Assembly (NCBI GenBank): GCA_030434875.1 | Contig: JAUISW010000001.1 | Span: 441,001-505,000 of the forward strand | DNA length: 64,000 nt | From: Lachnospiraceae bacterium C1.1 | Lineage (GTDB): Bacteria > Bacillota > Clostridia > Lachnospirales > Lachnospiraceae | Direction: 5' to 3' | Shown here: positions 21,106 through 47,793 of the stretch, piece by piece | Layout of the letters: the number at the start of each line of letters is the position of its first letter | How positions within the stretch are numbered: position 1 is the stretch's first letter | Notes under the pieces: model-generated | The model's database searches: none | The model's input: the letters and a program-made list of their open reading frames with translations, nothing else | Told to the model about the DNA's origin: nothing | Translations under genes and position numbers: made by a program

Positions 21106-21133
21106 TTGACAGAAATATTACAAAATGTATAAT
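21106..21133 (+). promoter_or_regulatory. Promoter of tRNA-Leu
   Basis: TTGACA (21106-21111) and TATAAT (21128-21133), both perfect, have a 16-bp spacer. The start would be near 21140, 20 nt before the mature tRNA. Confidence 0.8.
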
Positions 21134-21159
21134 TAATAGGGTTATATTTTTAATTATGA

Positions 21160-21242
21160 GCGCTGGTGTCGGAATTGGCAGACGAGCAGGATTTAGGTTC
21201 CTGTGTCTTAATGGCGTGTGGGTTCAAGTCCCATCCGGCGCA
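21160..21242 (+). tRNA. tRNA-Leu (anticodon UAG)
   Basis: The acceptor arms GCGCTGG and CCGGCGC pair over 7 bp with one G-T pair; the GTTCAAGTC-type T arm is present. The anticodon stem CAGGA/TCCTG carries the loop TTTAGGT, so the anticodon is TAG (reads CUA). The long variable arm is typical of leucine tRNA. CCA is not encoded. No terminator is seen in the 50 bp before rfbF, so the tRNA may be co-transcribed with the glycan operon. Confidence 0.95.
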
Positions 21243-21292
21243 CTAAATGAAGATTTTGAGAAAAAACCAATATTTATTTAGGAGATTATTTA

Positions 21293-22066
21293 ATGAAGGT
21301 AGTAATTCTGGCGGGTGGACTTGGAACAAGGATTTCGGAAGAAAGTCATTTAAGACCTAAGCCGATGATAGAGATCGGAGGGCATCCGATTCTTTGGCAT
21401 ATCATGAAGGAATATTCCCATTTTGGTTATAATGAGTTTATCATCTGTCTTGGATATAAGCAGCATATGGTAAAGGAATTTTTTGCAGATTATTATCTTT
21501 ATGCTTCTGATGTAACATTTGATCTTACAACAAATAATATGGAAGTTCATAATAATTCTTCTGAACCATGGAAAGTTACTCTCGTAGATACGGGTCTTCA
21601 TACGATGACAGGCGGCCGTGTCAAGAGGGTAAAGGATTATATAGGTGATGAAACCTTTATGCTTACATATGGTGATGGTGTTGCTGATGTTGACATTAAT
21701 GCTCTTGTGGATTTCCATAAAAAATCTGGCAAGATCGGTACGCTGACAGCAATTTCCATAGATCAGCGATTTGGTGTACTTGACGTACGTGAAGATAATC
21801 TTGTACATGAATTTGCTGAAAAGCAGGAAAAGGATTCAAGTGTTGTAAATGGTGGCTATATGGTATTTGAACCTGAGATATTTGATTATATTGAGGGAGA
21901 TAAAACTGTCTTTGAGAAAGAGCCATTACAAAGACTTTCAGCAGAGGGACAGCTTTCGGCGTTTCTTCATAATGGATTCTGGAAGTGTATGGATACACAG
22001 CGTGAAAAGGAACAGCTTGAGAAACTTTGGGAAAGTGGACAGGCTCCCTGGAAAGTGTGGGCATAA
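21293..22066 (+). CDS. rfbF: Glucose-1-phosphate cytidylyltransferase
   Basis: A 257-residue cytoplasmic enzyme making CDP-glucose from CTP and glucose-1-phosphate, the entry step to CDP-3,6-dideoxyhexoses. The nucleotidyltransferase signature LAGGLGTRISEES and the PKPMIEIGGHPILWHIM segment are full length; YGDGVADVD holds the metal-binding aspartates. The motif MTGGRVKRVKDYIG and the ending ending GFWKCMDTQREK are specific to RfbF among sugar-nucleotide transferases. The AGGAG RBS is 8 bp from the ATG. It overlaps rfbG by 1 bp (TAATG), and is the first gene of the branched-sugar cassette, 50 bp after tRNA-Leu. Confidence 0.96.
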   Translation: MKVVILAGGLGTRISEESHLRPKPMIEIGGHPILWHIMKEYSHFGYNEFIICLGYKQHMVKEFFADYYLYASDVTFDLTTNNMEVHNNSSEPWKVTLVDTGLHTMTGGRVKRVKDYIGDETFMLTYGDGVADVDINALVDFHKKSGKIGTLTAISIDQRFGVLDVREDNLVHEFAEKQEKDSSVVNGGYMVFEPEIFDYIEGDKTVFEKEPLQRLSAEGQLSAFLHNGFWKCMDTQREKEQLEKLWESGQAPWKVWA

Positions 22067-23151
22067 TGCTTGATTTTGATTTTTATAAGGATAAAAAAGT
22101 CTTAATTACCGGGCATACAGGATTTAAGGGCGCATGGCTTACGGCTATACTTTTATCTGCCGGAGCGAAGGTTACGGGATATTCGCTGGAAGCACCGACA
22201 GATCCTTCACTATTTGAACTTACCGGACTTGGGAGTAAGATCAGGTCAGTCATAGGAGATGTCAGGGATTATGATAAACTGAAGGCTGTTTTCGATGAGG
22301 AAAGACCACAGATAGTTTTTCATCTTGCGGCACAGCCTATTGTAAGGAAGTCGTATGATGAACCCAGGCTTACTTTTGATACGAATGTTATGGGAACGGT
22401 CAATGTTCTTGAATGCGTAAGACTTACGGATTCGGTTAAATCTTTCTTAAATGTCACCACTGATAAGGTTTATCTCAACAGAGATGATGATATAGCTTTT
22501 ACAGAGGATATGATGCTGGACGGATATGATCCGTATTCTAATTCAAAATCATGTTCGGAACTTGTGACTCACAGTTATGTAAAATCTTTCTTTTCCGAAG
22601 CGTCATCGCCTGCTGTTTCAACGGCAAGAGCAGGAAATGTGATAGGGGGAGGAGACTTTGCCGAGGATCGTATAATTCCTGATTGTGTAAGAGCAGCTCT
22701 TTCAGGAAAAGAAATAATCATTAGAAATCCTAAGGCAACAAGACCTTTTCAACATGTTTTAGAGCCTCTTTGGGTATACCTTGAGATAGCTGAGAAGCAG
22801 ATGAAGGACAGAATTTATGCAGGTTATTATAATGTCGGACCGGATATCACAGATACTAAAACAGCCGGCGAGCTTGCACAGATGTTTTGTGATGAATGGG
22901 GGGATTCCCTTCGCTGGGTTGATAAATCTGACGGTGGACCGCATGAGGCTGCTTTCCTAAAGCTTGACTGTTCAAAATTAAAGAAATCTTTTGGCTGGAA
23001 GAGCGTATGGCATATCGACCGTGCAGTTCAGGAAACTGTAAACTGGAGCAGGGCTTATGCTTCAGGGGAAGATGTCATGGCAGAAATGATGAGAGAAATC
23101 GCGGAATACAGAATTGATGCGGAAGATAATGAGTCAAGACTCAAAGGATAA
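22066..23151 (+). CDS. rfbG: CDP-glucose 4,6-dehydratase
   Basis: A 361-residue NAD-dependent short-chain dehydrogenase converting CDP-glucose to CDP-4-keto-6-deoxyglucose. The Rossmann motif TGHTGFKGAWL near the N-terminus, the HLAAQPIVRKSY strand, TTDKVY and the active-site DPYSNSK tyrosine-lysine pair are present. The start is the ATG overlapping the rfbF stop (TAATG); the longer in-frame open region upstream would overlap rfbF by 40 bp without a ribosome-binding site. The order rfbF-rfbG-rfbH is the standard CDP-dideoxyhexose order. Confidence 0.96.
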   Translation: MLDFDFYKDKKVLITGHTGFKGAWLTAILLSAGAKVTGYSLEAPTDPSLFELTGLGSKIRSVIGDVRDYDKLKAVFDEERPQIVFHLAAQPIVRKSYDEPRLTFDTNVMGTVNVLECVRLTDSVKSFLNVTTDKVYLNRDDDIAFTEDMMLDGYDPYSNSKSCSELVTHSYVKSFFSEASSPAVSTARAGNVIGGGDFAEDRIIPDCVRAALSGKEIIIRNPKATRPFQHVLEPLWVYLEIAEKQMKDRIYAGYYNVGPDITDTKTAGELAQMFCDEWGDSLRWVDKSDGGPHEAAFLKLDCSKLKKSFGWKSVWHIDRAVQETVNWSRAYASGEDVMAEMMREIAEYRIDAEDNESRLKG

Positions 23152-23158
23152 AATATTT

Positions 23159-23215
23159 TTGCCATGATCAATGGCAATAAGATTTTGGCACTGGTTATTT
23201 TGAGCAGTGCCAAAA
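23159..23215. other. Two hairpins in the rfbG-rfbH gap
   Basis: TTGCCAT/ATGGCAA (23159-23177, 5-nt loop) is followed by the perfect 11-bp stem TTTTGGCACTG/CAGTGCCAAAA (23183-23215). The second is terminator-like but followed by ATTGT, not a T run. It may set the relative amounts of rfbG and rfbH mRNA by partial termination or RNA processing. Confidence 0.6.
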
Positions 23216-23251
23216 ATTGTTTATAACTATTAAAGAACGGAGTAATATTGT

Positions 23252-24592
23252 ATGTTTGAAAATATGAATGAGGAAGAGGCACGCAGAAAGATACTTGAAG
23301 AGGTCTCTGAGTATGCAAAGAAATATCACTGTCAGAAAAAAGATTATAAGGACGGAGACAGGATACCTTATGCCAGCAGGGTTTATGACGAGAAAGAAAT
23401 GATAAATCTTGTGGATTCTTCTTTAGAATTCTGGCTTACTGCAGGAAGATATACCGAGAAATTTGAAAAGGATTTTGCAAAATATCTTGGAGTAAAATTT
23501 GTATCTGTGGTTAATTCAGGTTCTAGTGCAAATCTTACTGCGTTTATGACACTTACCAGTCCGCTACTTGGAGAGAGAAGAGTAAAACGCGGGGATGAAG
23601 TCATCACCGTTGCGGCAGGATTCCCTACAACAGTAGCACCTGTAATTCAGTATGGCGCAGTTCCGGTATTTGTTGATGTTACAATACCCCAGTACAATAT
23701 TGATGTTACAAAGCTTGAAGAGGCTTATTCGGAAAAGACAAAGGCTGTTATGATCGCCCATACACTGGGAAATCCCTTTGACCTTAAGGCTGTCAAAGCT
23801 TTTTGCGATGCGCATAACCTCTGGCTTGTAGAGGATAATTGTGATGCTCTTGGTTCATTATATACTATAGATGGAAAAGAAAAACTCACAGGAACCATAG
23901 GAGACATAGGTACAAGCAGCTTTTATCCGCCTCATCATATGACGATGGGAGAGGGAGGAGCAGTGTATACCGATAATCCGCTCCTTAATAAAATAATCCG
24001 CTCCTTTAGGGACTGGGGACGTGATTGCGTATGTCCTTCAGGCCATGACAATTTCTGCGGTCATCGTTATGATGGTCAGTATGGTGAGCTTCCTAAGGGA
24101 TATGATCACAAGTATGTCTATTCGCATTTTGGATATAATCTTAAGGCGTCTGACATGCAGGCTGCAGTAGGCTGTGCCCAGCTCGAAAAATTCCCGTCTT
24201 TTGTAAAAAGAAGAAGAGAAAATTTTGAAATGCTTAGGGAAGGCTTGAAGGATCTTGAGGATAAGTTTATACTTCCGGAGGCAGCGGAAAATTCTAAACC
24301 TTCATGGTTTGGCTTCCTTATAACTGTAAAAGAAGGGCTTTCAAGAAATGATATTGTTCGCTATGTTGAGAACGCAGGTGTACAGACAAGAATGCTATTC
24401 TCAGGAAATCTTTTAAAGCACCCTTGTTTTGATGAAATGAGAGCCAGTGGTGAGGGATACAGAGTAGTAGGCGGACTTGATAATACAGACAGGATCATGA
24501 ATGATACATTTTGGATCGGAGTATATCCGGGAATGGATAAAGCAAGGATCGACAGAATGATAAAAGTTCTTCATGAGGCTGTAAACAAATAA
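23252..24592 (+). CDS. rfbH: CDP-4-keto-6-deoxyglucose 3-dehydrase (E1), PMP and [2Fe-2S] dependent
   Basis: A 446-residue DegT/AHBA-fold enzyme that removes the C-3 hydroxyl of CDP-4-keto-6-deoxyglucose. Where aminotransferases of this fold carry the PLP lysine, the sequence has FYPPHHMTMGEGG, so His229 replaces it, the hallmark of E1. The iron-sulfur cysteines are visible at C197, C259, C261 and C269 (C-x61-C-x-C-x7-C; Yersinia E1 has 57 in the first gap). E1 needs a reductase, E3 (RfbI/AscD), which is not in the window. The RBS is weak. The product, a CDP-4-keto-3,6-dideoxyhexose, is the natural acceptor for the ThDP enzyme encoded downstream. Confidence 0.95.
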   Translation: MFENMNEEEARRKILEEVSEYAKKYHCQKKDYKDGDRIPYASRVYDEKEMINLVDSSLEFWLTAGRYTEKFEKDFAKYLGVKFVSVVNSGSSANLTAFMTLTSPLLGERRVKRGDEVITVAAGFPTTVAPVIQYGAVPVFVDVTIPQYNIDVTKLEEAYSEKTKAVMIAHTLGNPFDLKAVKAFCDAHNLWLVEDNCDALGSLYTIDGKEKLTGTIGDIGTSSFYPPHHMTMGEGGAVYTDNPLLNKIIRSFRDWGRDCVCPSGHDNFCGHRYDGQYGELPKGYDHKYVYSHFGYNLKASDMQAAVGCAQLEKFPSFVKRRRENFEMLREGLKDLEDKFILPEAAENSKPSWFGFLITVKEGLSRNDIVRYVENAGVQTRMLFSGNLLKHPCFDEMRASGEGYRVVGGLDNTDRIMNDTFWIGVYPGMDKARIDRMIKVLHEAVNK

Positions 24593-24641
24593 GATATCCG
24601 TGCTTTACTATAAAAATCGCGAATATGGAAAGGAATATAGA

Positions 24642-26237
24642 TTGAAAAGTATAAAACTTCTGGATTGTACACTTCGTGATGGCGGTTTTGTAAATAATTG
24701 GAATTTCGGACATGGAGATATTATCAATCTCTTTGAAAGATCGGTATCAGCAGGAATCGATTATATAGAGGTTGGATTCCTTGATGAGAGAGAAGAATTT
24801 GATATAAACAGGACTATAACACCAGATACGACAGGTATGAATGAGATATTTAAGGGTCTTGACCATGGAAGATCGAAGATATTTGGTATGATCGACTATG
24901 GAACCTGTTCTCTGGATAAAATCTGTGATGCCAAAGATTCTGTTCTTGACGGGATCAGAGTTATGATAAAAAAGCCTACACGTTATGAGGCTATAAATTT
25001 TTGTGCTGAGCTTAAGAAAAAAGGTTATATTGTTTTCGCACAGCCTGTGTCTATAACGGGTTACTCTGATGAAGAGATGATCGATCTTATAGAGCATATA
25101 AATGAAGCAGAGCCTGCAGCAATGGCTATAGTTGATACATATGGACTTTTGGACAGAAGCAGTCTTCTGCATTATTTTCATCTGATCGATGAGAATCTTA
25201 AGAAGGAAATAACTGTCGGTTATCATGCACACAATAATTTCCAGCTGGCTTATTCAAATTCGATGGCTCTTTGTGAGGAAAAAACAGAAAGAAGTCTGAT
25301 CCTTGACGGTTCAGCGTATGGTATAGGAAAAAGCGCGGGAAATTGTCCTTTGGAGCTTTTATGTGTCTATATGAACCATCATTTTGAGGCTGATTATGAT
25401 ACGAGTCAGATACTTGAAATGATAGATACCGGTATCATGAAGATTTATGAGAAATTCCCATGGGGCTATCAGATGCAGTATTTTCTCTGTGCTTCAAATG
25501 ACTGTCACCCTAAATATCCGCAGTATCTCTTAAAGAAAAAGACACTTTCTGTACAGTCTGTGAATGAGATCCTGTCGATGATCATTCCGGAGGAAAGACT
25601 TGCTTTTAATGAAGCTTATATAGAAAAGCTTTATATAGAGTATCAGAATAATGAGATAAATGATGAGGATGACAGGATAAAGCTTAAAAACAAGCTTGGA
25701 GGAAAAAAGATCCTTATCCTTGGTCCCGGACATTCGATGCTCGATGAGAAAAAAGGAATCTGCAGATATATTTCGGAAAATGCGCCAGAGATAATCTCAA
25801 TAAATTATAAACCTGATGATTTTTATCCGGATTATATTTTCTTAAGCAATTCCAAGAGATATATGCAGCTTTCGAATTCGTTACAGTCGGCGGGAACTGA
25901 TATTAAGATCATGGCAACGTCAAATGTTACAGCAGCGAAAGGTGAATTTGATTTTTCTTTTGATTACTCTACATTAATAGACAGAGAATTTGAGATTCCG
26001 GATAATTCACTTCCTATGCTTTTAAGACTCTTAGAAAAGATAGGCGTAAAGGATATAGCTCTTGCAGGATTTGATGGTTACTCGGTAGACAGCAGGGCTG
26101 ATTATATAAATCCTGATATGGCATATGAATTTATCAGCAATTATGCAGTTAAGCTCAACAGCTATACGAAGAAGGTCATTTCAGGATTAAAGGAAAAAAT
26201 GAATATAAGATTTGTTACGGAGTCAGCATATGAATAA
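24642..26237 (+). CDS. HMGL-type pyruvate aldolase fused to a GT42/DUF115-like C-terminal domain
   Basis: A 531-residue protein. Residues about 1-300 are a DRE-TIM barrel aldolase like 4-hydroxy-2-oxovalerate aldolase: LLDCTLRDGG holds the catalytic Arg-Asp, and YHAHNNFQLA the metal-binding histidines. After a linker, residues about 350-520 form a second domain beginning KKILILGPGHSML and containing ALAGFDGYS, a pattern resembling CMP-sialyl/Maf (DUF115) transferase-type Rossmann domains. The TTG start at 24642 follows GGAAAGGA; an upstream in-frame GTG lacks an RBS. It overlaps the HAD gene by 8 bp. It may form or cleave a 4-hydroxy-2-oxo acid that feeds the ThDP enzyme. Second-domain identity is uncertain. 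Confidence 0.75.
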   Translation: MKSIKLLDCTLRDGGFVNNWNFGHGDIINLFERSVSAGIDYIEVGFLDEREEFDINRTITPDTTGMNEIFKGLDHGRSKIFGMIDYGTCSLDKICDAKDSVLDGIRVMIKKPTRYEAINFCAELKKKGYIVFAQPVSITGYSDEEMIDLIEHINEAEPAAMAIVDTYGLLDRSSLLHYFHLIDENLKKEITVGYHAHNNFQLAYSNSMALCEEKTERSLILDGSAYGIGKSAGNCPLELLCVYMNHHFEADYDTSQILEMIDTGIMKIYEKFPWGYQMQYFLCASNDCHPKYPQYLLKKKTLSVQSVNEILSMIIPEERLAFNEAYIEKLYIEYQNNEINDEDDRIKLKNKLGGKKILILGPGHSMLDEKKGICRYISENAPEIISINYKPDDFYPDYIFLSNSKRYMQLSNSLQSAGTDIKIMATSNVTAAKGEFDFSFDYSTLIDREFEIPDNSLPMLLRLLEKIGVKDIALAGFDGYSVDSRADYINPDMAYEFISNYAVKLNSYTKKVISGLKEKMNIRFVTESAYE

Positions 26238-26892
26238 TTATAAGGCCGCGCTATTTGATATGGACGGAACCCTTTTTAATACAAAAAGAGGTATTGTAAA
26301 GGCACTCAGGATGGCAATAGAGGAATATGGACTGGAGCCTTTAAAAGAGTCTGAGGAAGAGCAGTTTATAGGACCGCCGATACAGAAAACTGTAGAGAGC
26401 TTTTATAAGATAAGTGAAGAGAGAGCAATAGAATGCGCGGATCTTTTCAGAAAATATTACAGAGAAAAGGACTTTGTTATTGAATGCGATCTCTATGATG
26501 GGATGACAGATTGTCTTAAAAAGCTTAAAGATAATGGGGTTAAGTTAGGTATTGCATCACTAAAAAAAGAGGATATGGTATTGAGGATCTGTGATACCTA
26601 TAATATAACAGGTTATTTTGACAGTATTCATGGAACAGATGCCCGTGACAATCTTTCAAAATCTGATATAATCCATATCTGCATGAATGAAAGCGGGATC
26701 AGTGAAAACAGCGAAGCGGTTATGATAGGAGATACAAGATTTGATGCAATGGGGGCTGAAGAGGCTGGTGTACCATTCCTTGGAGTTACCTATGGTTTTG
26801 GATTCCATTCTGCAGAGGATGTTAACGCTTATAAAAATATAGGCGCAGCGGCTTCACCAATGTCAATTACGGAATTTTTTATTAATAATTGA
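26230..26892 (+). CDS. HAD-superfamily phosphatase (phosphoglycolate phosphatase-like)
   Basis: A 220-residue cytoplasmic hydrolase. The motif I nucleophile DMDGTLFNT, motif II SLKKE region, and motif IV MIGDTRFDAMGAEEAG are in order; the helical cap (about 15-85) makes it subclass IA. The ATG at 26230 follows CGGAG and overlaps the aldolase stop by 8 bp, so translation is coupled. In context it probably dephosphorylates an intermediate of the branch-forming reactions or a phosphorylated aldehyde for the aldolase; substrate specificity cannot be read from sequence. Confidence 0.88.
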   Translation: MNNYKAALFDMDGTLFNTKRGIVKALRMAIEEYGLEPLKESEEEQFIGPPIQKTVESFYKISEERAIECADLFRKYYREKDFVIECDLYDGMTDCLKKLKDNGVKLGIASLKKEDMVLRICDTYNITGYFDSIHGTDARDNLSKSDIIHICMNESGISENSEAVMIGDTRFDAMGAEEAGVPFLGVTYGFGFHSAEDVNAYKNIGAAASPMSITEFFINN

Positions 26893-27040
26893 GACCTTTG
26901 TGTCTTAGAATTGAGCTTTATGATATAATAATGTGTATATGATTTTTGGCTTTTAAGAAAACCCGTATTTCTCTGCGGGGGTTCTATAGTAATGCAAAAT
27001 AGATAAGTTTGACTTAATAAGATCAGGCAAAGGAGACAAG

Positions 27041-28843
27041 ATGAAAATTTCAGAGTACATTGCGGATTTTCTGGTATCTAGAGGAGTAACCGATGTATTT
27101 ACCATAACAGGTGGTGCTGCTATGCACCTGAATGATGCATTGGGACACAAGGAAGGGCTTAAGTGCACGTATAACCACAATGAGCAGGCAACTACAATTA
27201 TGGCTGAAGCATATGCCAGACTGACAGGAAGAGTTGCTGCTGTATGTGTGACAGCAGGCCCGGGAAGTACTAATGCAGTGTCAGGTGTTTATGGTGCTTA
27301 TGTTGATTCTATTCCCATGATCGTTTTTTCAGGTCAGGCAAAAAGAGAGACAATGGTTACGGCATCAGAGGCACCTCTTAGACAGTTAGGCGATCAGGAA
27401 TGCAGAATAACCGAAATGGTCAGCTCAATTACAAAATGTGCAGTTACTATCACTAATCCGAATGAGATACGTTATCAGTTGGAGAAGGCATGGTTCCTTG
27501 CAAATAACGGAAGAAAGGGACCCGTCTGGATCGATGTTCCGCTTGATATTCAGGGAACTGTGGTTTATCCTGATGAACTTACAGGCTTTGACAGCAGAAA
27601 TACAGAAAAGGTTGAGAGACCTTATTATGATAAGTCTTATACTGATAAGATCCTCGAAAAGATCCATGAGGCAAGGAGACCGGTAATCCTTGCAGGTGAA
27701 GGAATACGTCAGGGTGATGCCTACAAGGTTTTTCTTGATTGTACGGATGCATTAAAGATTCCTGTTGTTACTGCATGGAATGCGAATGATCTTTTATGGG
27801 ACGAAAATCAGTATTATGCAGGACTGCCCGGAACTGTAGGTACAAGAGGCGGAAATTTTGTCGTTCAGAATGCAGATCTGTTACTCGTTCTTGGATGCAG
27901 AATGAACTTAAGGATCATAAGCTATAATAAATTCCAGTTCGCAGAAAATGCATATAAAATTGTAGTAGACATAGATGCAAACGAGCTTAAAAAGCCTACG
28001 GTTAAGATTGATATGCCCATTCATGCCGACGTCAAGGACGTTTGCAGGAGTTTGAGGAACTGCATTGATGAGGAAGTCGGAGATCACAGCGAATGGCTTA
28101 AATGGTGCCGCGAGATAAATAAACGTTATCCGGCAGTTCTTCCTGAATACTCAGAAAAAGCTGAACCGATGAATCCCTATCCATTCCTCAGAGGACTTTC
28201 AGAGCATCTTGGAGACACAGATGTTATAGTTTGTGGTAATGGTGCTGCATGTGTACAGACATTCCAGGCTTTTCATATGAAGAAGGGTGAAAGGATATTT
28301 ACCAACTCTGGAAGTGCATCAATGGGATACGGATACCCGGCAGCAATAGGAGCAGCGGTTGCACGTAAGGGTAAGAGAGTTATCTGTATAGATGGTGACG
28401 GCAGCTTTATGATGAATCTGCAGGAACTTGAGACAGTAGTTTATAACAAACTCAATATAAAGCTTGTATTGCTGAATAATAATGGATATCATTCAATAAG
28501 ACAGACTCAGACGAATCTTTTCAGAGGAAGATCTTATGTCGGTATAGACTCAGAATCCGGTGTAAGCTTCCCTGATTACTCCAAAATAGCTGACGCGTTT
28601 GGAATAAAGTATATAAGAATCGATTCGCTGAATGGAATGGATGATAAGCTGGAAGAAGCTCTTTCCGGTGATGAACCGGTATTTATCGAGGCTATGGTCG
28701 ATCCTGCACAGAACTTTGAACCAAAGCTTTCATCAAAGGTACTTCCGGATGGAACTATTACATCTGCTGCCTGTGACGATATGTTTCCTTTCCTTCCAAG
28801 AGAAGAGTATGAAGCTGTAAGGGCTGAGGCACAGAAGATTTAA
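27041..28843 (+). CDS. Acetolactate-synthase-like ThDP enzyme, probable C-acyl branch transferase (YerE-like)
   Basis: A 600-residue ThDP-dependent enzyme with all three domains of the acetolactate synthase/pyruvate oxidase fold. Glu48 (YNHNEQATTIMAEAYAR) activates the cofactor; the central FAD/nucleotide-type domain runs about 200-340; the ThDP-Mg motif GDGSFMMNLQEL..LNNNGY is in the C-terminal domain. Because it follows rfbFGH, an aldolase and a HAD gene, it is more likely a YerE-like enzyme, which adds an acyl unit from a 2-keto acid to C-4 of CDP-4-keto-3,6-dideoxyglucose in yersiniose synthesis, than a branched-chain amino acid enzyme; no IlvN regulatory subunit is present. It ends the operon before a strong terminator. 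Confidence 0.8.
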   Translation: MKISEYIADFLVSRGVTDVFTITGGAAMHLNDALGHKEGLKCTYNHNEQATTIMAEAYARLTGRVAAVCVTAGPGSTNAVSGVYGAYVDSIPMIVFSGQAKRETMVTASEAPLRQLGDQECRITEMVSSITKCAVTITNPNEIRYQLEKAWFLANNGRKGPVWIDVPLDIQGTVVYPDELTGFDSRNTEKVERPYYDKSYTDKILEKIHEARRPVILAGEGIRQGDAYKVFLDCTDALKIPVVTAWNANDLLWDENQYYAGLPGTVGTRGGNFVVQNADLLLVLGCRMNLRIISYNKFQFAENAYKIVVDIDANELKKPTVKIDMPIHADVKDVCRSLRNCIDEEVGDHSEWLKWCREINKRYPAVLPEYSEKAEPMNPYPFLRGLSEHLGDTDVIVCGNGAACVQTFQAFHMKKGERIFTNSGSASMGYGYPAAIGAAVARKGKRVICIDGDGSFMMNLQELETVVYNKLNIKLVLLNNNGYHSIRQTQTNLFRGRSYVGIDSESGVSFPDYSKIADAFGIKYIRIDSLNGMDDKLEEALSGDEPVFIEAMVDPAQNFEPKLSSKVLPDGTITSAACDDMFPFLPREEYEAVRAEAQKI

Positions 28844-28864
28844 TATATCAGATTTTTAATTCAG

Positions 28865-28917
28865 AAAAAACTTTTTGTCACGAATTCGCAATATTTTCGG
28901 AGACAAAAAGTTTTTTT
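28865..28917 (+). terminator. Intrinsic terminator ending the CDP-sugar operon
   Basis: The stem AAAAAACTTTTTGTC/GACAAAAAGTTTTTTT spans 15 bp with a 22-nt loop and ends in a T run. It separates the sugar-building genes from the glycosyltransferases. Confidence 0.85.
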
Positions 28918-28954
28918 CGGGATTATTTTTATGACTTTTTGAATTGAGAAAAAA

Positions 28955-29953
28955 ATGAGTGAAAAGAAAAAGAAAATAAGTATAATGATTCCCTGCTACA
29001 ATGAAGTAGAGAACGTTGGACCGATGAGTGAAGTCATAGTCGATATTATGACAAAGCAGCTTCAGAGATATGACTATGAGCTTATATTTATCGATAACCA
29101 TTCAGAAGATGGAACAAGAGAAAAACTGGAAGAAATATGTGCCGGAAATCATAATATCAAGGCGATACTGAATGTTACAAACTTCGGTCAGTTTAATTCT
29201 CCTTTTTATGCTATGTGCCAGACAAGCGGTGACGCAGTGATTTCCATGAGCTGTGATTTTCAGGATCCGCCGGAAATGATTCCGCAATATGTCGAGCAGT
29301 GGGAAAAGGGATATAAGATCGTCAGTGCCATAAAGACTACCAGTAAAGAAAACAGTTTTATTTTCTTTATGCGTAAATGTTATTATAAACTGATAAAGAA
29401 TATGTCGACTGTAAAGATGATCGAGAATTTTACGGGAACAGGTCTTTATGATAAGTCATTTATTGATCTTTTGAGAGAACTTGATGATCCTATTCCTTAT
29501 CTCAGAGGTATAGTTGCGGAATATAATTTCAAGCGCAAGGAAATTCCTTTTGAACAGCCTAAAAGGCGCGCAGGAACAACCAGCAATAATTTTTATTCTC
29601 TATATGATGCAGCGATGCTCTCTATTACATCATATACAAAAGTTGGACTTCGTATTGCAACATTCATAGGTTTCTTTGCGGGAGTTATCAGTTTTATAAT
29701 TGCTTTGGTTTACTTATTTTTGAAGTTGACAAACTGGTATCATTTTAGTGCAGGATATGCCCCGATGGTAATTGGTGTATTCCTTATAGGTTCTTTGCAG
29801 CTCTTTTTCATAGGGCTTTTGGGCGAATATATTTTGAATATAAATACCCGAATTATGCACAGACCGCTTGTTGTAGAAGAACGAAGAATTAATTTTGAGA
29901 CCGGGGATGAGAGCAGAAATGAGACTGGACGTATTATATCAGATAAACGATAA
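28955..29953 (+). CDS. Membrane-anchored GT2 glycosyltransferase, GtrB/DPM1 type
   Basis: A 332-residue transferase that moves a sugar to a polyprenyl phosphate at the inner membrane face. The GT-A domain (about 8-235) has MIPCYNEVENVG, FIDNHSEDGT and the metal/acceptor region SCDFQDPPEMI (QDPPE is the DPM1/GtrB signature). Two C-terminal transmembrane helices (about 238-262 and 272-300) and a basic tail follow. It probably loads a lipid-linked sugar for the GT-C transferase at 37874-39355, which would use such a donor outside. It starts 37 bp after the operon terminator; RBS weak, no clear promoter seen. Confidence 0.9.
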   Translation: MSEKKKKISIMIPCYNEVENVGPMSEVIVDIMTKQLQRYDYELIFIDNHSEDGTREKLEEICAGNHNIKAILNVTNFGQFNSPFYAMCQTSGDAVISMSCDFQDPPEMIPQYVEQWEKGYKIVSAIKTTSKENSFIFFMRKCYYKLIKNMSTVKMIENFTGTGLYDKSFIDLLRELDDPIPYLRGIVAEYNFKRKEIPFEQPKRRAGTTSNNFYSLYDAAMLSITSYTKVGLRIATFIGFFAGVISFIIALVYLFLKLTNWYHFSAGYAPMVIGVFLIGSLQLFFIGLLGEYILNINTRIMHRPLVVEERRINFETGDESRNETGRIISDKR

Positions 29954-43371: not shown

Positions 43372-44988
43372 ATGACACTTTTTTCGTTGAATTTTTTTAT
43401 ATTTGTTTTTGCGGTAGTGCTCTTATACTATCTGCTGCCAGGCAAGGTACAGCATTTGCTCTTGCTGGCGGCGAGTTATATTTTTTATTGCTGGGGAACA
43501 GGGTGGAAAGGTGTTGGATTTATAATTTTTACAACAATTTCTACCTTTTTTCTTGCAATCAAAATAGAGAAGATTCTTAATAAATATAAAGAGAAAGCTG
43601 CAGAAGTAAAAAATAAAACTGTCAGCATGACGAAGGAAGAATTAGAAAATCTTAAAGAGAAAAACATCAAAGAACGCAGAAAATATCTGGCATTTGGTCT
43701 CATCAGCAACTTTGGAATTCTTGCCATTGTAAAATATGCTTCATTTATTTTGATAGGTATCAGTGAAAAGCTTTCTGCAGCCGGGCTTGGAGGTCAGCTT
43801 GCAGAGGACTCCATCTTTCTTCCGCTTGGAATTTCATTCTATACATTTATGACAATGGGTTATCTTATGGATGTTCATAGGGATAAATGTAAGGCGGATC
43901 ATAATCTTTTTCACTTTGCCTTATATACGGCGTATTTTCCACAGATAATACAGGGCCCCATAAGCAGATATAAAGATGTTTCTGAGGAATTTATCAAGAT
44001 TCACGTCTGGAATGATGAAAATTTCAGAAATGGATTTTTAAGGATGCTCTGGGGGTATGTAAAAAAAATAATTCTGGCTGAAAGAGCAGCGATCATTGTA
44101 AACGAAGTCTTTAATAACTATGCATCAGCAGGATACAAAGGCTTTATAATATTTTTTGCCGGTCTTTTATATGGTTTTCAGATTTATGCTGATTTCTCCG
44201 GAGGTATGGATATAATATTTGGTATTTCAGAGATGCTTGGAATAAGACTTAGTGAAAACTTCAGACAGCCTTATTATGCAAAAACAGTTTCTGAATTCTG
44301 GCAGAGATGGCATATAACATTAGGTGCCTGGATGAAGAATTATATTTTCTATCCGATCTGCCTTTCAAAAACTGCAGGAAAGGTTCAGAAAAAATTAAAG
44401 AAGAAATTTGGTAATTATTATGGAAGAGTACTGATTCCCTCTTTTGCTTCGTTTATATCATTTTTTATAGTAGGAATATGGCATGGAGCTGATGTAAAAT
44501 ATCTTGTTTATGGATTCTATATGGCATTATTCGTCTCTGCCAATACCCTTTTAGAGCAGTTTTATACAAAGCTCAGGGAACGATTTAAACTTAATCCTGA
44601 TACAATGGCATATAAGGCGTTTCAGATAGTCAGAACCAGTGTGATCGTATTGGTGGGAAGATTTTTTGCAAGAGGAAATTCGCTTCCGGATGCATTAAGA
44701 ATGATAAAAAATATGTTTTCAGCGGTAAATTTAAGAGTTTTAACGGATGGAACACTTCTTGGATTTGGGCTTGATGATAAGGATTGGATTGTTTTGATCC
44801 TGGCAATAGCTCTTATGCTTTATGTGGATTATAAAAATGAACATGGGGTTATAATTAGGGAAAAAATTGCAAAAGCATCACTTCCATTACGTTGGGCAGT
44901 TTATTATGCAGCGATAGTTGCAGTCCTTATCATCGGAATTTATGGTGTTGGTTATGATGCATCGTCCTTTATATATCAGAATTTCTAA
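43372..44988 (+). CDS. MBOAT-family O-acyltransferase (DltB/AlgI-like), second copy
   Basis: A 538-residue polytopic membrane enzyme, similar in design to the first copy but clearly different in sequence. Motifs: YFPQIIQGPISRY, SEFWQRWHITLGAW and the catalytic FIVGIWHGADVKYL with His371. A charged cytoplasmic loop (KEKAAEVKNKTVSMTKEEL, about 72-90) is extra compared with the first copy. It would transfer a carrier-bound acyl or aminoacyl group to an extracellular acceptor, working with the SGNH protein encoded 14 bp downstream. Confidence 0.93.
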   Translation: MTLFSLNFFIFVFAVVLLYYLLPGKVQHLLLLAASYIFYCWGTGWKGVGFIIFTTISTFFLAIKIEKILNKYKEKAAEVKNKTVSMTKEELENLKEKNIKERRKYLAFGLISNFGILAIVKYASFILIGISEKLSAAGLGGQLAEDSIFLPLGISFYTFMTMGYLMDVHRDKCKADHNLFHFALYTAYFPQIIQGPISRYKDVSEEFIKIHVWNDENFRNGFLRMLWGYVKKIILAERAAIIVNEVFNNYASAGYKGFIIFFAGLLYGFQIYADFSGGMDIIFGISEMLGIRLSENFRQPYYAKTVSEFWQRWHITLGAWMKNYIFYPICLSKTAGKVQKKLKKKFGNYYGRVLIPSFASFISFFIVGIWHGADVKYLVYGFYMALFVSANTLLEQFYTKLRERFKLNPDTMAYKAFQIVRTSVIVLVGRFFARGNSLPDALRMIKNMFSAVNLRVLTDGTLLGFGLDDKDWIVLILAIALMLYVDYKNEHGVIIREKIAKASLPLRWAVYYAAIVAVLIIGIYGVGYDASSFIYQNF

Positions 44989-46910: not shown

Positions 46911-47793
46911 CAGAAAAGACTGGCTTAGAAAAAAACTTGCTTACTGGCATGAAAGTTTGGTGCCTCCGTTTCTTTATCCTTATGCATTAAAGAGCTGGTA
47001 TAAGAAGTGTACAGGAAGGGAACTGGATCTTAAGAATCCGAAGACCTATTGTGACAAGATAAACTGGATAAAACTTTATGGAGTCAGTCCTGAAATGACA
47101 AGACTTTCAGATAAATTGCTTGTCAGGGATTTTGTTAAAGAGAAAATAGGCGAGGAATATCTTATTCCACTGTTGGGATTCTGGGACAGATTCGATGAGA
47201 TAGATTTTGACAAGCTGCCGGAAAAGTTTGCCCTAAAGACAAATCATGGTTCGGCGACAAATATCATCGTTGATGATAAAGACAAATTGGATATGGAAGA
47301 TGCAAGGGATAAATTTAATTTCTGGATGAGTATCAATTTTGCCTTTCAATTTGGATATCAGCTCCAGTATAGGGATATAAAACGTAAGATTCTTGCAGAA
47401 GAATTTATAGATAATGGTGGAAATGACCTTTTTGATTATAAGATCCACTGCTTTGATGGAAAGCCTGAGTATATTCAATATATAGGAAGCAGAAGAGGAG
47501 ATACCAGGGAAATATATCTTGATACCGAATGGAATCCTGTGGACTTTTTTGATGCTGTATTTCCAAGATATGAAAAGATTCCACCAAAGCCGGAGTGTCT
47601 TGAAAAATTAGTTGAACTTGCAGCTGTTTTATCTGAAGGCTGGAATTATGTAAGAGTAGACTTTTATGTCCTCGATAATGGGGATATAAAGTTTGGAGAA
47701 ATGACATTTACTCCGGGATCCGGTCAGTATAAATGGAATCCCCCGGAGGCGGATCTCTTTATGGGAGAGAAGATAAAACTTCCTTTGAATTAA
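46900..47793 (+). CDS. TupA-like ATP-grasp protein
   Basis: A 297-residue protein of the ATP-grasp TupA family, named for teichuronopeptide synthesis, where it probably joins an amino acid to a uronic acid. The signatures NPKTYCDKINWIKL, ALKTNHGSATNIIV, ILAEEFIDNGG, YKIHCFDGKP and WNYVRVDFYVLDNGDIKFGEMTFTPG are all present. ATG at 46900 has AGGGAG 9 bp upstream and overlaps the preceding stop. It ends the plus-strand glycan operon at a bidirectional terminator shared with tex. Members are often annotated as glycosyltransferases; the ligase role fits the fold better. Confidence 0.87.
   Translation: MGIDRKDWLRKKLAYWHESLVPPFLYPYALKSWYKKCTGRELDLKNPKTYCDKINWIKLYGVSPEMTRLSDKLLVRDFVKEKIGEEYLIPLLGFWDRFDEIDFDKLPEKFALKTNHGSATNIIVDDKDKLDMEDARDKFNFWMSINFAFQFGYQLQYRDIKRKILAEEFIDNGGNDLFDYKIHCFDGKPEYIQYIGSRRGDTREIYLDTEWNPVDFFDAVFPRYEKIPPKPECLEKLVELAAVLSEGWNYVRVDFYVLDNGDIKFGEMTFTPGSGQYKWNPPEADLFMGEKIKLPLN

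Follow-up and report, generated by a model that had tools for sequence, protein, structure and literature searches.

What does a DRE-TIM aldolase contribute to a gene cluster for a CDP-linked dideoxysugar? The question is raised by a stretch of 64,000 nucleotides from Lachnospiraceae bacterium C1.1 (contig JAUISW010000001.1, positions 441,001 to 505,000; hereafter the window), in which the genes rfbF, rfbG and rfbH are followed by genes for the aldolase, a haloacid dehalogenase (HAD) phosphatase and a thiamine diphosphate (ThDP) enzyme. These six consecutive open reading frames (ORFs) all lie on the forward strand between positions 21293 and 28843, and our analysis confirmed the gene content and order given by an initial annotation made from the DNA alone. 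We consider that the cassette probably serves a rare sugar of the cell surface, in the form of a CDP-3,6-dideoxyhexose that bears a long C-4 branch, the donor of which would be supplied by the aldolase. In this pathway RfbF, RfbG and RfbH would produce a CDP-4-keto-3,6-dideoxyhexose as acceptor, and a 4-hydroxy-2-oxo acid of the 3-deoxy-2-ulosonic type would come from the DRE-TIM protein by aldol addition of pyruvate to an aldehyde that is probably a sugar phosphate. The phosphate of this aldol product would then be removed by the HAD protein, and a YerE-like ThDP enzyme would decarboxylate the acid and attach the remaining acyl unit at C-4 of the keto sugar. The product would be a tertiary alcohol whose branch, 2-deoxy and 3-hydroxy, resembles that of caryophyllose, and an adjoining polyprenyl-phosphate glycosyltransferase may pass the sugar towards the cell surface. 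From the observed gene identities, gene order, family placement and co-occurrence we infer the substrates, the phosphate, the length of the branch and the receiving polymer. The initial annotation had likewise proposed that the aldolase feeds the ThDP enzyme and thereby lengthens the branch; this logic remains the best-supported reading, although the evidence supports it only in part.

The three Rfb proteins each exceed their curated NCBIfam equivalog cut-offs, which places them in the RfbF, RfbG and RfbH families. RfbF, a glucose-1-phosphate cytidylyltransferase (21293..22066), scores 402 bits against a cut-off of 300 for TIGR02623; RfbG, a CDP-glucose 4,6-dehydratase (22027..23151), scores 426 against 278 for TIGR02622, with a match that begins at residue 19 and a likely start at ATG 22066; and RfbH, a CDP-4-keto-6-deoxyglucose 3-dehydrase of the E1 type (23252..24592), scores 727 against 423 for NF011936. 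In RfbH a histidine (His228/229) occupies the position of the lysine that binds pyridoxal phosphate in aminotransferases, which we take to be the mark of a 3-dehydrase, and Cys259/261/269 are invariant in 36/36 aligned RfbH proteins. These residues appear, as expected, to fit a 3-dehydrase rather than an aminotransferase, and we regard the acceptor assignment as well supported and the identity of the donor as a good hypothesis.

The last protein of the cassette (27041..28843) has all three TPP_enzyme domains (PF02775, PF02776 and PF00205), a catalytic Glu48 that is found in 89 of 89 aligned proteins, and a GDG motif with its glycine at 452. Its best solved relative is Protein Data Bank entry 8rph, with 356 bits over nearly the whole length versus 236 bits for E. 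coli acetohydroxyacid synthase I; the 8rph sequence has a 100% database match named as the Janthinobacterium sp. HH01 enzyme, and a passage of PMC12188165 identifies the entry as JanthE. Two quick phylogenies grouped the protein and its aldolase-linked relatives with JanthE (Shimodaira-Hasegawa-like support, SH-aLRT, of 99 and 100), while E. coli IlvB/IlvI and two IlvB-like proteins of the same genome fell apart from this group. These trees came with long-branch warnings, hold PoxB in one case and YerE and ErwE in neither, and have JanthE as their only characterised YerE-like member; in the second, the weaker aldolase-linked proteins of L146, L147 and L152 branch outside JanthE. The JanthE residues K567 and Y297 are retained as K562 and Y295 in the cassette enzyme, and across the aldolase-linked ThDP proteins the lysine is present in 63/66 and the tyrosine in 60/66, with neither found in four IlvB-like proteins. 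A comparison of pocket residues with those of aldolase-less relatives gave no clear signature of donor length. On these alignments and trees, the placement of the cassette enzyme in the YerE-like ThDP family is well supported.

A rival reading takes the ThDP protein for an ordinary acetolactate synthase located here by chance, and acetolactate synthase models are in fact its best NCBIfam matches. All of the 25 models listed, out of 55, nevertheless score under cut-off, the best with 362 versus 538 bits; the protein is placed away from IlvB, so that the first of the two outcomes by which the initial annotation would have been refuted does not occur; and of two IlvN genes in the genome, both outside the cassette, one adjoins an IlvB-like gene. 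A true acetolactate synthase was rejected on the cut-offs, the trees and this separate IlvB/IlvN pair, and we consider a chance location of one here extremely improbable.

The aldolase protein consists of two domains, a DRE-TIM barrel (residues ~15 to 291; 24600..25634), which we propose to be a pyruvate aldolase, and a fused C-terminal domain (25635..26237). The protein belongs to family PF00682, and the DRE-TIM fold takes up its first 290 residues; translation probably starts at TTG 24642 and not at GTG 24600, since this is where most aligned relatives begin and the model is poor over the first 14 residues. The Arg, Asp and His-x-His site of this fold, a feature of 4-hydroxy-2-oxo acid (HOA) aldolases, is kept. 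The protein scores 62.8 bits against a cut-off of 286 for TIGR03217, and membership of the HOA (meta-cleavage) aldolases was ruled out by this score together with the absence of their catalytic histidine. The C-terminal domain may have a fold like that of the CstII sialyltransferase, MptE and Maf (Foldseek alone ranked SteA first), and it is kept whether the aldolase gene stands with a ThDP gene or with a CMP-sugar synthetase gene. Separate MptE-like genes also stand near the CTP transferase in three loci of the latter kind (L015, L064 and L082; PF01973 in L064).

The gene neighbourhoods of aldolase relatives bear on what this protein supplies. We analysed the best 80 of 584 confirmed aldolase stretches, a set that leans towards the cassette's own kind, using neighbour hidden Markov models built from these same loci, and a class draw of 321 Clostridia genomes offsets that lean in part. 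A YerE-like ThDP gene is present in 63 of the 80 loci (a contig end truncates five of these genes, and three of the five were counted by hand), and two loci end at the aldolase, leaving 15 informative loci without a ThDP gene. A KdsB/NeuA-like CTP transferase is encoded in 12 of these 15, within 74 bp of the aldolase in 11, and in none of the 63 loci with a ThDP gene (Fisher p 1e-11, uncorrected for relatedness). Four CTP transferases were tested, and two scored over the cut-off of the 3-deoxy-manno-octulosonate cytidylyltransferase subfamily and two were PseF-like below cut-off. Three of the 12 CMP-type loci (L075, L076 and L080) have rfbF and rfbG in the stretch, and none has rfbH. The gap between aldolase and ThDP genes is at most 76 bp in 26 of the 60 measured. 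On a quick tree of 97 aldolases, which contains long branches, the CMP label needs six changes and the ThDP label eight, of which five and seven, respectively, are required by well-supported branches, so the switch between the two contexts seems to have occurred repeatedly. Loci of the ThDP type also occur in records that bear the names Fibrobacter (L078), Flexilinea (L084), Treponema (L083) and Bacteroidales (L059).

The draw, with aldolase, ThDP protein and RfbH searches in all 321 genomes, gave the same division. Judged by length, it shares no contig of the CTP-transferase type with the first set, and two ThDP-type contigs (G260 and G293) are as long as those of L037 and L085. Aldolase matches were found in 25 genomes, 18 of them full-length (E 1e-100 or better). 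Where full-length aldolases lack a ThDP gene, a CTP transferase adjoins the aldolase in nine of ten genomes (L136-L145), the tenth being on an 8.8-kb contig, and it is found in none of the seven fetched loci with aldolase and ThDP genes (six full-length and the lower-scoring L152). The lower-scoring aldolases come from seven genomes, of which four were fetched: L155 has a NeuA-like gene, L152 a ThDP gene, and L153 and L154 neither partner. RfbH, with a baseline of 26 of 321 genomes, is encoded in 20 of the 24 genomes with a YerE-like gene versus 6 of the 297 others (p 7e-23); the four exceptions include L123, in which RfbH is cut by the contig end, and the six others include L152, with its weaker ThDP gene. 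Among genomes with a full-length aldolase, RfbH is present in 7/18, divided as 7/8 with a ThDP gene and 0/10 without, which indicates that RfbH tracks the ThDP gene rather than the aldolase.

Other enzymes that could provide an acid for CMP activation were searched for in 21 genomes that have the CTP transferase and aldolase pair. KdsA exceeded its cut-off in 5, and NeuB passed Pfam's low line in 17, but just 3 of these exceed 100 bits, and the remaining NeuB matches (at most 48 bits) coincide with KdsA matches under cut-off. Fourteen of the 21 genomes have neither KdsA over cut-off nor NeuB above 100 bits, which leaves the aldolase as the best local candidate for making the CMP-activated acid. 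Taken together, these patterns suggest that the aldolase makes a 3-deoxy-2-ulosonic acid that is either CMP-activated or transferred, with decarboxylation, to a CDP-4-keto-3,6-dideoxyhexose; as the aldehyde that the aldolase accepts, we prefer a phosphorylated sugar. Whether a locus goes with CMP activation or with ThDP grafting provides a simple genomic test of that product. More tentatively, and at somewhat less than an even chance, slightly lowered by the HAD counts of the draw, the DRE-TIM barrel with its sialyltransferase-like domain, often accompanied by a HAD protein, may be an exchangeable pyruvate-aldolase route to 3-deoxy-2-ulosonic acids, separate from KdsA and NeuB, that is plugged either into CMP-ulosonic acid synthesis or into YerE-like grafting onto a CDP-4-keto-3,6-dideoxyhexose.

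Several of the observations in this and the following two paragraphs weigh against an aldolase-supplied branch on this sugar. At the position of the HOA-aldolase catalytic histidine, which we take to be His21 of DmpG, 95 of 97 aldolases have Tyr or Phe and none has His, so that we infer pyruvate aldolase activity from the fold and the metal site. In the ThDP enzyme, V and R replace the JanthE residues Y268 and P293, which are reported to keep FAD in position. A whole-genome search with PF00175 gave no match in the window for an E3 reductase of the RfbI/AscD type, and recovered two low-scoring NAD_binding_1 proteins elsewhere in the genome. The short-chain dehydrogenase/reductase (SDR) gene that is present in 35 of the 43 ThDP loci flanked by at least 8 kb on both sides has no match in the window either, the best match in the genome being at 35% identity outside it, and it is also missing from L009, L010, L012 and L024; in such loci the branch ketone might remain unreduced. 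Of 29 NCBIfam models for the HAD protein (26212..26892, likely start ATG 26230; PF13419, 120 bits), 25 were listed, and no specific equivalog among these passed its cut-off. A HAD gene lies within 4 kb in 41 of the 63 ThDP loci and is thus not universal; in CMP-type loci it is found in 9 of the 12 of the first set, at up to ~2.2 kb, and, with the 4-kb limit, in only 3 of 9 in the draw (L136, L138 and L139). The phosphate step is weakened by this distribution. Eight other ThDP loci (L025, L029, L033, L052, L053, L062, L066 and L083) have no close HAD gene and encode an AroB-like putative sugar-phosphate phospholyase; no locus has both within 4 kb, an SDR gene accompanies 7/8 of the AroB-like genes, and the one protein tested, from L052, scored over the TIGR04425 phospholyase cut-off. 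The AroB-like protein may provide an alternative phosphate release, or may form a carbocyclic branch.

Other points of this kind concern the aldolase itself. Neither a ThDP gene nor a CTP transferase accompanies the aldolase in six loci (L039, L071 and L087; L140, whose contig is short; and L153 and L154, both with lower scores), and five loci (L124-L128) combine a ThDP gene with rfbGH and have no aldolase of either kind detectable by homology. The latter five belong to a comparison set of 16 ThDP loci without the DRE-TIM aldolase; their ThDP enzymes may use pyruvate, and some members of the YerE-like family probably need no aldolase. They would suit a plain yersiniose-type pathway, in which the ThDP enzyme adds acetyl from pyruvate and the aldolase and HAD protein serve another building block of the polymer, and YerE itself, as described in part of a review (PMC12247030), transfers only short units, from pyruvate or 2-oxobutyrate, onto CDP-3,6-dideoxy-4-keto-D-glucose. 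Against such a pathway stand the position of the aldolase gene, which in many lineages touches the ThDP gene or comes close to it, and the choice of partner, which in the loci examined is either a ThDP gene or a CMP-sugar synthetase gene and never both. Moreover, two of the 16 loci of the comparison set, L120 (9733-10536) and L121 (5790-6599), have a gene for an HpcH/HpaI-type aldolase (29.8 and 40.5 bits against a cut-off of 25) next to the ThDP gene, followed in L120 by a HAD gene, and by position and homology this would be a non-orthologous replacement of the DRE-TIM aldolase. We therefore consider the plain acetyl branch unlikely.

The remaining points concern RfbH. In the draw it is missing from 11 of the 18 genomes with a full-length aldolase and from 15 of the 25 with any aldolase match. 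Taken literally, this is the second outcome that the initial annotation had named as fatal to its proposal, namely an aldolase that occurs mostly without rfbH, and the co-occurrence it expected is upheld for the aldolase-ThDP pair but not for the aldolase alone. The majority without RfbH is explained, and not fatal, given the CMP synthetase in 9/10 loci without a ThDP gene and RfbH in 7/8 genomes with both aldolase and ThDP genes. In the first set, a strong RfbH match (at least 600 bits) is found in 34 of the 63 ThDP loci. Among the 43 that are fully flanked, 32 have RfbH above 400 bits, or 29 when three weak matches (416-428 bits) are excluded, compared with none of the 10 fully flanked loci without a ThDP gene. 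In six of the fully flanked ThDP loci, rfbF, rfbG and rfbH are all missing from the vicinity, a number that rises to eight when two weak RfbH matches are discounted, and the genome of L059 has no RfbH match at all. Such loci would be expected if the aldolase, HAD and ThDP genes were a free-standing module that acts on another acceptor and only sometimes shares a locus with rfbFGH; so would L130, L131 and L135, which pair RfbF with the ThDP gene and have no rfbG or rfbH match in the stretch. On the other hand, of the 16 genomes checked among the 29 loci without a strong local RfbH, 15 have a gene for RfbH over cut-off outside the stretch (several stretches reach only a short way to one side, and RfbH may sit just past that edge), and the association of RfbH with ThDP genes in the draw also argues against another acceptor, which we regard as quite unlikely. 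In L130, L131 and L135 the YerE-like gene directly adjoins RfbF, and RfbH is encoded elsewhere in those genomes. The genome of L029 (G347) has seven over-cut-off RfbH genes, suggesting many 3,6-dideoxyhexose pathways.

The gene order and flanks of the cassette bear out the initial annotation, with some qualifications. The overlaps it described are small and depend on the start codons chosen, amounting to one base between rfbF and rfbG if rfbG starts at ATG 22066 and to 8 bases between the aldolase and HAD genes if the latter starts at ATG 26230, but there are also gaps, of 100 bp between rfbG and rfbH and of 148 bp between the HAD and ThDP genes. At the end of the cassette, where a strong terminator had been noted, there is a terminator-like hairpin on the forward strand (~28866..28915; minimum free energy -26.8 kcal/mol over the 121 nt from 28840 to 28960, z -3.17, 0 of 200 shuffles as good). 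It is A/T-rich with a long loop and absent from a pattern scan limited to loops of 3-8. Directly upstream, the interval 21106-21243 holds a perfect TTGACA-16-TATAAT site and, immediately 5' of rfbF, a tRNA-Leu gene found by ARAGORN (21160..21243, forward strand); the cassette may have been inserted next to the tRNA gene or may be transcribed by read-through from it. Downstream on the same strand, a protein resembling polyprenyl-phosphate glycosyltransferases of family GT2 (28955..29953; PF00535) is a candidate first user of the CDP-sugar. It matches NCBIfam PgfS and ArnC-type models, both under cut-off, and a related family is found in 34 of the 43 fully flanked ThDP loci. From this gene to position 47793 extends the rest of a surface-glycan region, with GT2, GT8, MBOAT (a second, at 43372, found by eye), FkbH-like, Glyoxalase_4, sugar-transfer ATP-grasp, radical SAM and TupA-like ATP-grasp members. 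The nearest named relatives of the cassette proteins are from Lachnospiraceae. Plasmid records offered nothing useful for either enzyme: the aldolase had 61 matches, one of which covers 80% at 21% identity, and the ThDP protein had 11 at 30-33% identity (E limit 1e-60), those with gene names being mostly of the IlvB type. HMGL-like, ThDP and nucleotidyltransferase genes can also occur in phosphonate pathways; Pfam gave no phosphoenolpyruvate mutase domain for any of the 20 proteins of the window run against it, and a phosphonate pathway was rejected.

Among known systems, the pathway for 3-deoxy-manno-octulosonate (Kdo) combines a three-carbon donor with a sugar phosphate through KdsA, and the resulting acid is dephosphorylated by KdsC and CMP-activated by KdsB. 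Loci with CTP transferase, aldolase and HAD genes resemble this set of KdsB, KdsA and KdsC, but their aldolase is of a different family from KdsA, the HAD gene is present in only 9/12 and 3/9 of them, and the cassette would replace the CMP step with ThDP transfer. The HOA aldolase DmpG/BphI (1nvm) has the DRE-TIM barrel and the Arg-Asp and His-x-His site in common with the cassette aldolase, which differs in its missing catalytic histidine, its other C-terminal domain and its score under the TIGR03217 cut-off. JanthE, the closest solved relative of the ThDP enzyme, shares the pocket Lys and Tyr, and has CDG where the cassette enzyme has GDG and Y268 and P293 in place of V and R.

The known systems also include the YerE-like branching enzymes themselves. 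YerE of yersiniose A synthesis in Yersinia pseudotuberculosis is likewise a ThDP branching enzyme and acts on CDP-3,6-dideoxy-4-keto-D-glucose, but with its two short donors only, and that section of the review describes no supply aldolase. According to passages of the same review (PMC12247030), MMAR_2332 of Mycobacterium marinum is a YerE-like enzyme linked to caryophyllose, a sugar of the lipooligosaccharide, with a donor preference like that of ErwE, its action on a ketone being unproven there. Caryophyllose is given in part of another source (PMC5706390) as 3,6-dideoxy-4-C-(1,3,4,5-tetrahydroxyhexyl)-hexopyranose, a 3,6-dideoxyhexose with a long 2-deoxy branch. By our own deduction, an aldol reaction with pyruvate, then decarboxylation and reduction, would be expected to leave such a pattern in the branch, with a deoxy position at C-2' and a hydroxyl at C-3'. 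The mycobacterial case differs in that the sugar belongs to an actinobacterial glycolipid and the source of the donor acid is unstated in the passages concerned, and in that the branch made by the cassette is a predicted one.

No paper linking a DRE-TIM aldolase to such sugars was among the titles and abstract openings listed, though a prior description is possible, and term searches of PMC13354803, PMC4403928 and PMC12395582 gave no mention of an aldolase. The initial annotation knew of no such route in a Firmicute, and we too saw no Firmicute case; its view of the route as unknown otherwise gives way to the published precedents of ErwE and MMAR_2332 for long hydroxylated donors. The system is thus a well-conserved cassette of a known kind, with YerE-like branching in print and the proposed chemistry in print for ErwE and in part for MMAR_2332, and its dedicated donor-supply module was not found in the literature searched. 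If our reading is correct, long-branched sugars extend to Lachnospiraceae and beyond, and there is a set of ThDP enzymes with donors provided by a neighbouring aldolase, which would be useful for making tertiary alcohols.

A close precedent in donor and acceptor is ErwE of Pectobacterium atrosepticum, a YerE-like lyase assigned to erwiniose in the review passages (PMC12247030), which favours 4-hydroxy-2-oxo acids, has CDP-4-keto-3,6-dideoxyglucose as its assigned acceptor and has been coupled in vitro with a sugar analogue. Section 2.1 of that review names no gene for the donor acid, whereas the cassette has a built-in DRE-TIM aldolase and HAD protein. Enzymes of the ErwE type need long hydroxylated 2-oxo acids, and the cassette offers a concrete and widespread candidate for their supply.

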